Position numbers and translations under genes: made by a program
Part shown: positions 25,356 to 29,246 of the stretch, piece after piece
Layout: the number at the start of each line of letters is the position of its first letter
Position numbering within the stretch: the stretch's first letter is position 1
Assembly: GCA_021734345.1 (NCBI GenBank)
Contig: JAIPJC010000020.1
Coordinates: 1-35,391, forward strand
Source of the DNA: Kiritimatiellales bacterium
Lineage (GTDB): Bacteria > Verrucomicrobiota > Kiritimatiellia > Kiritimatiellales > Pontiellaceae
Direction: 5' to 3'
DNA length: 35,391 bases
Notes under the pieces: generated by a model
Database searches by the model: none
What the model was told of the DNA's origin: nothing
Seen by the model: only the letters and a program-made list of their open reading frames with translations

Positions 25356-25559
25356 ATGGACTCATCGACTATCTTGATCGGCGTGCTACTCGGGGCCATC
25401 GGGTGCGGATATATTGTCTATGGCCGGAAGCAACTGCACAGCATGGCCTTGGTTTCGGGCATCCTGCTCTGCATCTTCCCCTACTTCGTCGCCAACATCT
25501 GGCTGGCCCTGCTGATCGGGGTCCTGCTGATGCTCCTGCCGCGCTTCATCGATTTTTAG
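25356..25559 (+). CDS. small two-helix membrane protein
   Basis: A 67-residue very hydrophobic protein. SSTILIGVLLGAIGCGYIVY (3-22) and the stretch from about residue 30 to 63 form two or three membrane segments, separated by the basic GRKQLH loop. GCGGAGA precedes the ATG. Similar small proteins are widespread and uncharacterised. Its stop codon overlaps the stop of the convergent DUF4185 gene (4 shared bases), and it follows the BNR_4 gene by 88 bases. Confidence 0.72.
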   Translation: MDSSTILIGVLLGAIGCGYIVYGRKQLHSMALVSGILLCIFPYFVANIWLALLIGVLLMLLPRFIDF

Positions 25560-26722
25560 CGCGGCTCATTCTCCGGGCCGCGACCAAACGATACTTCCAC
25601 CAGCCGCACTTCGCCCTGGAGGAATCCGGTTTCCCGGTAGTAGGAAAAATACATCACACGACCGTCCGACCTGGAAAACTCATCGTGCGACAGACCGGAA
25701 TAGCACCATTGGTTGGTGTTCGTGGGCGGAATGCAGTCCACCGCGTTCAACGGATCGGACCACGGCCCTTCCAGATGCTTCGCCGTGCGGACGACGATCC
25801 GGTTTTCGAGCGGAGCACTGTAGACCGCCAGATACCGTCCAAGCCACCGGTTCCATGAAACACTCATCATCGGCGCACCTTCGAACACCGGAACCGCCTG
25901 CCGCCAGTCGGCGCTCCACTTTCCTTTTCCGGAGTAAAACCGCCACGCGGAACGGTCAAGCGCCTGATCGAACGGAGCCCGGGCGAGCGTCATCGGCCAG
26001 GCAAGCCACTTGGACTCGCAGCCAAAGACATACAGCATCCCGTCTTCCACGATCGCGCAGTCGCCCCACGGCGAATCCCCGGCCGGGAACAGCATGGTCG
26101 GATGTTCCGCACCGGGGTGGATCACCGGGCGAACCGGATGTTCGTCAAGCCGGTTCCAGACCGCGATTGAACGTCCGACCGAGTGGAAATCCCACTGCCC
26201 GTTCGGCCCGCCGAAAATTTTATTATAAAAAACATAGGCCTTCTCGCCGTCCGGCGAAACCACAACCGGACCAGGCCAAAGCCCCCAGCGGCTCCGGCTT
26301 CCTTCCGGAACCTCCGTTGTGAAGTGCTCTCCGTTGTAGCGGGCTTCTGTTTCCGTAAAAGGCAGGAACTCGTACGGCACGCCGTTCGTATCCACCGGTT
26401 CGGCCAGATCCTGTAGATTATCCCGTGCATCCCGGTCACCGGTCTGGCACCAGGTACTGGTTCGCCACTGCGAGCCGTCCACGCCTTTTTTCTGCATGAT
26501 GGAATCGCCGAACACCCAAACCGACTGCCCTTGGAATTCCGCACTATAGCCGCCGTCCCGCCCGCGAATGGCCTCGATGAATTTCATCGGGCCGAGGTCG
26601 CGCGCCACCTCAATCCGCACCTCGGACGGAATCCCCGACTTGCGCCACGCCGGCTCCGAAGAACATCCGACACATGTCAGCACAACCAACACCACGACGG
26701 AATTTAATGCCAAGCCATTCAT
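25556..26722 (-). CDS. DUF4185-type beta-propeller lipoprotein
   Basis: A 388-residue protein. A hydrophobic N-terminus ends in LTCVGC, a slightly atypical lipobox (Cys20), predicting membrane anchoring. The rest matches the DUF4185 propeller: SVWVFGDSIMQ near residue 70, WGLWPGPVVVSPDGEKAYVFY, SPWGDCAIVEDGMLYVFG, and GAPMMSVSWNRWLGRYLAVYS. DUF4185 proteins are related to GH43/GH117-like propellers and often occur in polysaccharide-use regions, but no activity is established. AGGAGGT lies 5 bases before the ATG. Its start is only 28 bases downstream of the duplicated comM tail at 26751-26780. Confidence 0.82.
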   Translation of the reverse strand: MNGLALNSVVVLVVLTCVGCSSEPAWRKSGIPSEVRIEVARDLGPMKFIEAIRGRDGGYSAEFQGQSVWVFGDSIMQKKGVDGSQWRTSTWCQTGDRDARDNLQDLAEPVDTNGVPYEFLPFTETEARYNGEHFTTEVPEGSRSRWGLWPGPVVVSPDGEKAYVFYNKIFGGPNGQWDFHSVGRSIAVWNRLDEHPVRPVIHPGAEHPTMLFPAGDSPWGDCAIVEDGMLYVFGCESKWLAWPMTLARAPFDQALDRSAWRFYSGKGKWSADWRQAVPVFEGAPMMSVSWNRWLGRYLAVYSAPLENRIVVRTAKHLEGPWSDPLNAVDCIPPTNTNQWCYSGLSHDEFSRSDGRVMYFSYYRETGFLQGEVRLVEVSFGRGPENEPR

Positions 26723-26750
26723 ACGACCTCCTGAGATTCAGAAACCATAC

Positions 26751-26780
26751 TCAAACCCACAGCTGCCGGTCGAGAGTCCG
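26751..26780 (-). repeat. duplicated 3' end of comM (distal copy)
   Basis: 28 of 30 bases are identical to 27547-27576 in the same orientation. Both copies translate to RTLDRQLWV and a TGA stop, and both differences are at synonymous third positions. The four-helix-suffix gene lies between the copies. Confidence 0.85.
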
Positions 26781-26856
26781 TCGGCGAAATTCGCGATAGC
26801 GGAGCCTACCGAGCTGATTTGGCGTTTTCAAGAATTGAAATTTATCTACCACACGC

Positions 26857-27465
26857 TCAACCTCGCCCTTCGCCCCGCCTTTGTCCCGTCCGCGCTTTGT
26901 AGAGTCGCTCCGAAAAGCCGCCTCCCTCTTCAAAGTCCTGGGCTTGCCGATCAAGCAGCCGTTCCGCCAACCAATGTGCCTGCGCGGCCAGGATGGCTCC
27001 AAGATTCGCGGCGCGTTCTTCATGGCATTGTTTTACGCCCGATGCGTTTATCCACGCCGCAGCCTCTTCCAAGGTTTGGGGCCGCAGGCTGCGCGCTTCC
27101 TCGAAAGCGGACTCGCCTTGTTGCCAATGGTTCAGATGGCGGCGCTTCAGATGTTTCACATAATCCTTCTGGAGTTCCCCCAGACTCGAACGCGCCACGT
27201 TGGTTAGATTCATTTCCAGCTTCTTGGTTGTTGCGCTATCTTCGCTGCCTTCGGCCAGGTTCTGATAGCCGCTCCTCGCCGCCTGCACCATCTGGTCGTG
27301 ATGGCGATCCTTGAATGGAATGTAGCGCTCGCAAAACCGGCAGGTGAAGTCGTAGCAGAGCTCGGAAACCTGATAGGCCTTCAGCTTGCGGAACCCGCTG
27401 TGCTTGCCGTAGACCCGTCCAGCAGACTCCGAGTTCATTGCCCTTTTATCGGGTTGGTTTTCCAT
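26857..27465 (-). CDS. four-helix bundle suffix-domain protein (23S IVS-protein related)
   Basis: A 202-residue protein. Residues about 24-108 (GFRKLKAYQVSELCYDFTCRF through DQMVQAARSGYQNLAEGSED and VARSSLGELQKDYVKHL) match the four-helix bundle family known from proteins encoded in 23S rRNA intervening sequences. The C-terminal ANLGAILAAQAHWLAERLL, FEEGGGFSERLYKAR part matches the 'four helix bundle suffix' extension (TIGR04258-like). The family's function is unknown; a nucleic-acid-binding role is often supposed. AGGAGAAGG precedes the ATG. It sits downstream of comM in the same orientation, flanked by direct repeats of the comM tail, which suggests it arrived as an inserted unit. Confidence 0.87.
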   Translation of the reverse strand: MENQPDKRAMNSESAGRVYGKHSGFRKLKAYQVSELCYDFTCRFCERYIPFKDRHHDQMVQAARSGYQNLAEGSEDSATTKKLEMNLTNVARSSLGELQKDYVKHLKRRHLNHWQQGESAFEEARSLRPQTLEEAAAWINASGVKQCHEERAANLGAILAAQAHWLAERLLDRQAQDFEEGGGFSERLYKARTGQRRGEGRG

Positions 27466-27481
27466 TTTCCTTCTCCTGTTT

Positions 27482-27534
27482 ACGGACAGAACCGACGAAA
27501 CAGAGTCTCCCGCCGTTGTGTCTGTTCAGTCCGT
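27482..27534. other. inverted repeat between comM and the four-helix gene
   Basis: ACGGACAGAAC (27482-27492) and GTTCAGTCCGT (27524-27534) can pair at 10 of 11 positions, enclosing 31 bases that include smaller complementary segments. There is no T-run, so a terminator is unlikely. It may be a structured end of the inserted unit. Confidence 0.4.
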
Positions 27535-27546
27535 TTCTCCATTTCT

Positions 27547-27576
27547 TCAAACCCAAAGCTGCCGGTCGAGCGTCCG
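27547..27576 (-). repeat. 3' end of comM (copy in use)
   Basis: Direct-repeat partner of 26751-26780, and the present end of the comM coding sequence. Confidence 0.85.
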
Positions 27577-29082
27577 GTATTGGATGGCTTCGGAAATGTG
27601 ATTCGGCTTGATGATGTCCGAGGCATCGAGATCGGCGATGGTGCGGGCGACTTTCAGGATGCGGTCGTAGGCGCGGGCGCTGAAGTTGAGGTCGGACATG
27701 GCGGTGCGCAGGATCTGTTCGGCATCGGGTTCCATGCGGCAGACCTGGTGCAGGGTCTTGCTACGCATGTTGGCGTTGCAATGGATGCCGGGATGTTTCT
27801 TGTAGCGCTCCTGCTGGATTTCACGGGCGCGGACGACGCGCTCGCGGATGGCGGCGGACGGCTCGCCTTTTTCGAGTTTGGTGATCTGTTCGTAGGAGAT
27901 GGCGGGCACTTCGACGTGGATGTCGATACGGTCGAGCAGCGGGCCGGAAATCTTGCTGCGGTAGCGCGCAATCTGCATGGGCGAGCAGCGGCACTCGCGC
28001 TTGGGGTCGGTCTGGTAGCCGCACGGGCACGGGTTCATCGCGGCCACAAGCATGAAGCGGCAGGGATAGGTGACGCTCGCCGCGGCGCGGGCGATGGTGA
28101 CTTCGCCATCCTCTAGCGGCTGTCGCATGACTTCGAGCACACTGCGCTGGAACTCCGGCAGTTCGTCGAGGAACAGCACGCCGTTATGGCCAAGGCTGAC
28201 CGCGCCGGGCATCGGGTTGGTACCGCCGCCAAGCAGCCCGGCGTCGGAAATGGTATGGTGCGGCGAATGGAACGGGCGACGCGCCACCAGCGCCTGATGC
28301 GATTTGAGCGAACCGGAAATGCTATGGATCTTCGTCGTCTCCAACGCTTCGTCGAGCGACATCGGCGGCAGGATGGAGGGCAGCCGCTTGGCAAGCATGC
28401 TTTTCCCGGTGCCGGGCGGGCCGATCATCAGGCAGTTGTGTCCACCGCTGACGGCCACCTCGATGGCGCGCTTGGCGAACTCCTGCCCCTTCACATCGGC
28501 GAAGTCGTCCTCGTAGAGACTGTTGGCTTCGAAGACGGAGCGGATATCGAGCTGGTAGGGTTCGATCTTGATGTCCTGGTTGAGGAAGTCGGCCGCTTCG
28601 CGCAGGTTGCGGACGGGGAAAACCTTGATGCCGTCGACCACCGCCGCCTCTTCGGCGTTCTCTGCCGGAACCATGATGGCTTTGATACCGGCATCGCGCG
28701 CCATGATGGCGATGGGCAGGATGCCGCGTACTTTCCGTACCGCCCCGCTGAGCGCCAACTCGCCAACGATGGCGATGCGCGGCAGCAGGTCCGGCTTCAT
28801 GTCGTCGAGCGCGGCGATGATGCCCAACGCAATGGGCAGGTCGAAACTCGGCCCCTCCTTCTTCATGTCGGCCGGGGCGAGGTTGATGGTGGTGCGCCCC
28901 ATCGGCGGACGGAACCCGGAATTGATCAGCGCCGTCCAGACGCGGTCGGAGCTTTCCTTCACCGCGGCGTCGGGCAACCCGACAATCACCACCTTGGGTT
29001 CGCCGTGCCCCGCATTGACCTCGATTTCGACGGGATAGGCGTCGATCCCGTACACCGCCCCCGAATTGACTTGTGAAAGCAT
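27547..29082 (-). CDS. comM: ComM/YifB family Mg-chelatase-like AAA+ ATPase
   Basis: A 511-residue protein of the usual YifB/ComM length. It has the N-terminal ChlI-like domain (MLSQVNSGAVYGIDAYPVEIEV, NLAPADMKKEGPSFDLPIALG), the Walker A motif GPPGTGKS at about 221-228, the Walker B-like GVLFLDELPEF, a zinc-type CPCGYQTDPKRECRC segment and the C-terminal Mg-chelatase domain. In naturally transformable bacteria ComM is a hexameric branch-migration helicase that extends integration of foreign DNA. GGGAG lies ahead of the ATG at 29082; a TTG 24 bases upstream was rejected. The gene is divergent from lon. Its last nine codons are duplicated beyond the next gene. Confidence 0.95.
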   Translation of the reverse strand: MLSQVNSGAVYGIDAYPVEIEVNAGHGEPKVVIVGLPDAAVKESSDRVWTALINSGFRPPMGRTTINLAPADMKKEGPSFDLPIALGIIAALDDMKPDLLPRIAIVGELALSGAVRKVRGILPIAIMARDAGIKAIMVPAENAEEAAVVDGIKVFPVRNLREAADFLNQDIKIEPYQLDIRSVFEANSLYEDDFADVKGQEFAKRAIEVAVSGGHNCLMIGPPGTGKSMLAKRLPSILPPMSLDEALETTKIHSISGSLKSHQALVARRPFHSPHHTISDAGLLGGGTNPMPGAVSLGHNGVLFLDELPEFQRSVLEVMRQPLEDGEVTIARAAASVTYPCRFMLVAAMNPCPCGYQTDPKRECRCSPMQIARYRSKISGPLLDRIDIHVEVPAISYEQITKLEKGEPSAAIRERVVRAREIQQERYKKHPGIHCNANMRSKTLHQVCRMEPDAEQILRTAMSDLNFSARAYDRILKVARTIADLDASDIIKPNHISEAIQYRTLDRQLWV

Positions 29083-29246
29083 CGAAAACTCCCGGTTTGG
29101 AAACAATAAACTTGCAAACAGTAAACCGTTTTAAATGACGAAAAGAAATGGCAAATTGGCGCGCATTTTTCCAGACATTGGGAATCCTCTCCCCTATTCT
29201 TCCGGCAACCAATAACCAACAACAACCAGCAACGAACAACCGACCT

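Follow-up and report, generated by a model that had tools for sequence, protein, structure and literature searches.

A four-helix-bundle suffix gene between direct repeats of the comM 3' end may belong to a scattered family of small, apparently mobile cassettes

Results

The window, that is, the whole stretch of 35,391 nucleotides analysed here from a Kiritimatiellales bacterium (assembly GCA_021734345.1, contig JAIPJC010000020.1), carries on its minus strand an intact comM (yifB) gene (27547-29106; TIGR00368, 635.7 bits). The 3' end of this gene (27547-27576) is the proximal copy of a direct repeat and encodes RTLDRQLWV followed by a stop codon. Behind comM, and on the same strand, come a hairpin (27482-27534), a four-helix-bundle suffix gene of 202 amino acids (26857-27465) with its suffix domain at 26875-27018, a 76-base spacer (26781-26856), the distal copy of the repeat, encoding the same nine residues and stop (26751-26780), and, 28 bases beyond this distal repeat, a DUF4185 gene (25556-26722). 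The two repeat copies are spaced by 796 bases and are identical at 28 of 30 positions; both differences (ACG/ACT and CTT/CTG) are synonymous. The chance expectation for such an ungapped repeat is about 2e-6, taking the whole window and assuming equal base use. The positions of the two repeats, their coding content, the synonymous differences and the 28-base distance to the next gene had been described in a sequence-only reading of the window, and we reproduced them exactly. Its description of a unit of about 800 bases that holds one gene and no recombinase was also confirmed. The unit lies between comM and DUF4185, outside any rRNA gene. A comM-tail pattern matched our genome only at the two window sites, with the reversed control pattern also matching twice there.

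The hairpin contains two GAC (27531 and 27522) and two GTC (27496 and 27487) triplets, each pair nine bases apart. Both of these nonamer arms are upstream of the gene, and none is recognisable downstream. This inverted repeat, which the sequence-only reading had noted, folds with a modest signal: an 87-base stretch reached -23.2 kcal/mol (z -1.91), equalled by 8 of 200 shuffled sequences. No Rfam match was obtained at E 1 across 26700-27620, and the spacer matched only itself among 28 genomes of the genus (E 0.01). At E 1e-40, the neighbouring DUF4185 protein had no match in the other 344 genomes of the class (1/345 including our own); this gene was probably acquired, given the absence of matches in the class.

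The product of the four-helix gene passes the TIGR04258 model (49.9 bits, cut-off 40) and falls under the gathering score of PF05635, the 23S_rRNA_IVP family (24.7 versus 33.8 bits). Its AlphaFold model has a mean pLDDT of 87.8, and the top structure match in the PDB is 2gsc, with a probability of 1.00 but an E value of 0.12; the S23-family protein 2rld is also among the matches (E 1.4). Searching the PDB by sequence gave a best E value of only 0.99. TIGR04258 is present in 61 of the 97 genomes searched, our own included, with up to 10 copies per genome (in G055), and in 0 of 14 control genomes. For the member at locus L025, the best 79 further relatives are 62-83% identical and come from records titled Verrucomicrobia, Lentisphaerae, Planctomycetes, Acidobacteria, Geobacter, Chlorobium and others. 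This spread suggests horizontal transfer, although most of the records are metagenome bins, in which sequences may be mixed. We found ten further members of the window subfamily (at least 65% identity). They include genes directly behind comM in G028 (a sister genus), behind radC (G040), between hemCD and hemB (G032) and behind isocitrate dehydrogenase (G005). Elsewhere the family is located behind hsdM, hsdS and PIN genes. The upstream neighbour is on the same strand for 117 of 150 four-helix genes, compared with 263/407 (p=0.0015). Between our unit gene and that of G028, dN is 0.09 and dS 2.9, which indicates that the protein is under selection. Of note, two members of the family (L048 and L050) carry a C-terminal zinc ribbon of the topoisomerase type (PF01396), and the same ribbon was recognised by eye at L049, L193, L204 and L210. 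Reverse transcriptases (PF00078), considered as a possible helper of the units, had no match in our genome, which is about 85% complete, or in G055. Over the 97 genomes, PF00078 and TIGR04258 correlate (rho 0.27, p=0.008) and co-occur (29/61 versus 9/36, p=0.03), both values being uncorrected for genome size and completeness. The term "four helix bundle suffix" was found in no paper, and none of the titles and abstract openings listed in the literature searches describes such units.

The sequence-only reading suggested looking for other four-helix-suffix genes between duplicated ends of host genes, and such loci exist. When the sequence ahead of each gene was compared with that behind it, counting scores of at least 20, flanking direct repeats were found at 18 of 131 four-helix genes, with 0.35 expected from flanks paired across different genomes. 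A second set of 74 loci from named genomes gave 14/74, with 0.2 expected. Under uniform geometry, repeats flank 28/185 four-helix genes and 5/252 other ORFs from the fetched loci, and three of those five control ORFs are comM-tail duplications in loci that had been fetched deliberately. The remaining 157 of the 185 units have no significant flanking repeat. The repeats are locus-specific and 19-148 bases long. Some of them coincide with the 3' end of the gene upstream, which Pfam confirmed to be hsdM (N6_Mtase; L025, L307, L349, L331, L318 and L286), hsdS (L313) or PIN (L204). L348 resembles the hsdM group, and its 127-amino-acid fragment has no Pfam match. The hsdM cases probably reflect a few events and not seven. 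At L025 both copies finish with an ATG, which in the first copy is the assumed start of the inserted gene and in the second starts the gene read as hsdS. At L210 and L209 the repeat corresponds to the leader of the following sequence, with or without its start codon, and the repeats at L193, L210 and L217 are non-coding hairpins or leaders. Those at L218, L229, L226 and L193 are themselves arrays of short repeats or hairpins, so that some of the excess may come from repeats growing locally.

Across ten loci with coding repeats, 18 of 34 codon differences between the copies are synonymous and 16 are not (p=4e-4 against a neutral expectation of 25%, which is an assumption, the ten loci not being independent). 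This frequency of synonymous differences fits with both copies having once been real gene ends. At four of the ten loci (L331, L318, L307 and L348), non-synonymous changes outnumber synonymous ones.

The units have a second signature at their ends. GAC at nine-base spacing occurs upstream of 37% of 188 four-helix genes and of 6% of 342 other ORFs; for GTC downstream, the figures are 35% and 10%. Triples are likewise in excess (GAC upstream, 38/188 versus 4/342; GTC downstream, 36/188 versus 5/342). The peak at period 9 is sharp and stands far above every other period between 4 and 13. Complementarity between the flanks exceeds the 99th percentile of controls in 14 of 109 genes. In the 26 repeat-flanked units, the complementarity of the ends was not above that of cross-pairs overall (p=0.17), and inverted repeats lying inside direct repeats were not shown to be a general rule.

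Several junctions occupied by a unit are unfilled in relatives. In G040, radC is followed by a unit and then by a MASE1 histidine kinase gene, whereas in G030 a radC 91% identical to that of G040 is separated by 60 bases from a MASE1 kinase gene (65% identical over 306 amino acids), with no unit. The unit between hemCD and hemB in G032 has no counterpart in G042, where hemCD overlaps hemB by 11 bases; similarly, hsdM overlaps the Methylase_S gene by 4 bases in G052, G126 and G173, and the unit is absent. These comparisons involve other species and not sister strains, so that they bear on junctions and not on single events. As a separate observation, the place of the G032 unit upstream of hemB is taken in G030 (L247) by another hairpin, formed by ACCAGCGAATGAATAAAATTTACGAA with its complement. 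An empty counterpart of the window site, with a single comM end followed by DUF4185, had been anticipated and was found in none of the 344 other genomes of the class; no unfilled relative of the window site was found because its DUF4185 gene is unmatched there.

The sequence-only reading also proposed that the unit targets comM. The presence of a unit behind a gene whose 3' end is duplicated was borne out, and comM as a dedicated target was not: units lie behind many genes (hsdM, hsdS, PIN, radC, hemCD and isocitrate dehydrogenase). We discarded the comM tail as a conserved DNA site, since identity at four-fold sites is not raised there (517/984 in the last 10 codons versus 0.54 overall, in 20 comM genes). 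The comM-tail pattern had 45 matches in 28 genomes, against 9 for the reversed control, and matches with three mismatches are unsafe. In G028, the related unit is directly behind comM and no distal comM end is recognisable. G021 carries an extra comM tail behind comM with other cargo, a PALP enzyme, as well as a longer comM fragment. Extra tails also occur in G007 and in G005, where two fragments spaced by 790 bases share their flanks, as in a tandem duplication; G008, G024 and G027 have such tails at places away from comM. Behind comM in G027 (L141, 3800-17800), units of about 1.0, 1.7, 5.8 and 5.5 kb form an array, with comM tails of one orientation as their boundaries. Tail duplication at comM is thus not peculiar to the four-helix family, because comM tails bound other cargo in G021 and G027. 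Within this genus, the end of comM recurs as a seam, even though its synonymous sites are not conserved. Dispersed comM tails (L131, L132, L133, L134, L135 and L136, in G027, G024 and G008) lie beside GTGTCAGTCCTATTATTTC or GAAATAATAGGACTGACAC sequence, and some copies have GTGTCAGTCCTATTATTTC-type ends; the arrangement resembles capture of the comM end by a mobile repeat. No recombinase was recognised by eye among the listed ORFs of the comM-tail regions of G027, G005, G007 and G008, and the Pfam scan of such regions covered four ORFs (three from G027, one from G021).

Regarding the age of the unit, identity at four-fold sites between our genome and G028 is 27/65 for the unit genes and 133/210 for the comM genes (p=0.002). 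Hence, joint inheritance of comM and the two units is improbable, although codon use may differ. The comM-tail copy in the window (28/30) is younger than the split between the two unit genes.

Discussion

In this study, we characterized a four-helix-suffix gene enclosed between duplicate comM 3' ends. We consider, with a probability of roughly 0.55, that it is a member of a scattered family of small, apparently mobile cassettes that enter gene junctions. The observations behind this reading are the repeats, their recurrence around the gene family, the nonamer excess and the filled and unfilled junctions; the recurrence of the repeats supports insertion well. In the proposed scenario, the cassette would consist of the four-helix-suffix gene, in many cases with GAC/GTC nonamer repeats at its ends that are able to pair. 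It would enter the junction between two genes, usually behind one on the same strand, and some insertions would leave a locus-specific duplication of about 19-148 bases with both neighbours intact. At the window locus, the duplication would be the last 30 bases of comM. We infer that insertion itself creates the repeats, that a mobilising enzyme from outside the unit acts in trans and that the helical-bundle protein may assist by binding the nonamer stem. Later on, the duplicated gene end might permit the unit to spread or exit by homologous recombination. The varied length of the repeats, unlike the duplications made by transposases, counts against this scenario. So do the majority of units without a significant flanking repeat, the unremarkable complementarity of the ends in repeat-flanked units, the upstream position of both nonamer arms in the window, the repeats that are short arrays or hairpins, the probably small number of hsdM events and the other cargo bounded by comM tails.

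The duplication can also be read the other way round, in line with the sequence-only reading, the unit having brought its own copy of the host-gene end. A single crossover, homologous or site-specific, of a circular or fragmentary form would then leave a donor tail next to the native one. This reading, which we regard as unlikely, keeps its place because codon differences between repeat copies are more often synonymous (18 versus 16) than the assumed 25%, as would be seen for alleles. That argument is tempered by the expectation being assumed, the loci being non-independent and four of the ten pointing in the opposite direction. Moreover, within one group of hsdM loci the four proximal ends are alike (IRxLL), as are three of the four distal ends (IKALL), and the unit genes of our genome and G028 both lie behind comM, yet were probably not co-inherited with it. 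On the other hand, the repeats at L193, L210 and L217 are non-coding hairpins or leaders, the unit has a single gene and no recombinase, and the comM tail is not conserved at the DNA level.

Two further readings concern the distal side. The four-helix gene could have settled behind comM first, as in G028, with DUF4185 arriving later and carrying a foreign comM end. We find this distinctly unlikely, and it retains some weight because DUF4185 was matched in only 1/345 genomes of the class and no empty site was found. The arrangement in G028 (comM and a related gene without a recognisable distal end) agrees with it, as does a tail copy that is young relative to a dS of 2.9 between the unit genes. 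However, the four-fold-site comparison speaks against co-inheritance of comM and the unit gene, and duplicated ends at other four-helix loci require no such partner. Finally, the distal copy might be the leftover of a tandem duplication or of a decayed second comM, for which the fragments in G005 and G021 offer precedents. Since the homology in the window ends sharply at 30 bases and the flanks on both sides are unrelated, this origin is largely refuted and highly improbable.

Beyond the preferred reading of the window as one copy of a cassette family, we tentatively raise a broader idea that we hold to be rather doubtful. Four-helix-suffix units might be a widespread class of minimal mobile elements that correspond, in free-living form, to the intervening sequences (IVS) of rRNA, in which an S23-type protein would recognise paired GAC/GTC nonamer ends and insertion at a junction would duplicate the upstream gene end, sparing the host operon. 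Relatives that lie outside rRNA, offer insertion sites to count and unfilled junctions to compare and carry a sharp nonamer signature would make the question of IVS/S23 mobility testable. Our results also call for caution: a lone small gene within an operon like hsdM-hsdS can be a mobile passenger.

The unit shares features with several known systems. Islands of the SCC type or tRNA type restore the 3' end of the gene that they enter, so that the end is duplicated and the host gene stays intact, as in the window. Unlike them, the window unit measures about 0.8 kb and has no recombinase, the family sits at many different host genes and no conserved attachment DNA is seen at comM. Transposons with target-site duplication also produce direct repeats particular to each locus, as four-helix units do, but of fixed length. 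Four-helix repeats vary, and the unit has no transposase, which sets it apart from DDE transposons and MITEs. The Avd protein of diversity-generating retroelements is a relative of S23 proteins and belongs to the same helical-bundle class; in contrast to these retroelements, our incomplete genome gave no reverse transcriptase match. The units depart from the IVS of 23S rRNA in lying outside rRNA, in their extra suffix domain, in having nonamers instead of heptamers and, for some, in being flanked by duplicated host-gene ends. The Coxiella IVS paper treats function and origin as unclear, with hypotheses only, and describes GACAGAT heptamers ahead of the S23 ORF together with a 28-bp terminal stem (PMC4990558). 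Short GAC-core repeats preceding the ORF are common to both. Like the IVS, the units carry an ORF for an S23-type four-helix bundle, have ends that appear complementary in part of the family and are suspected of mobility.
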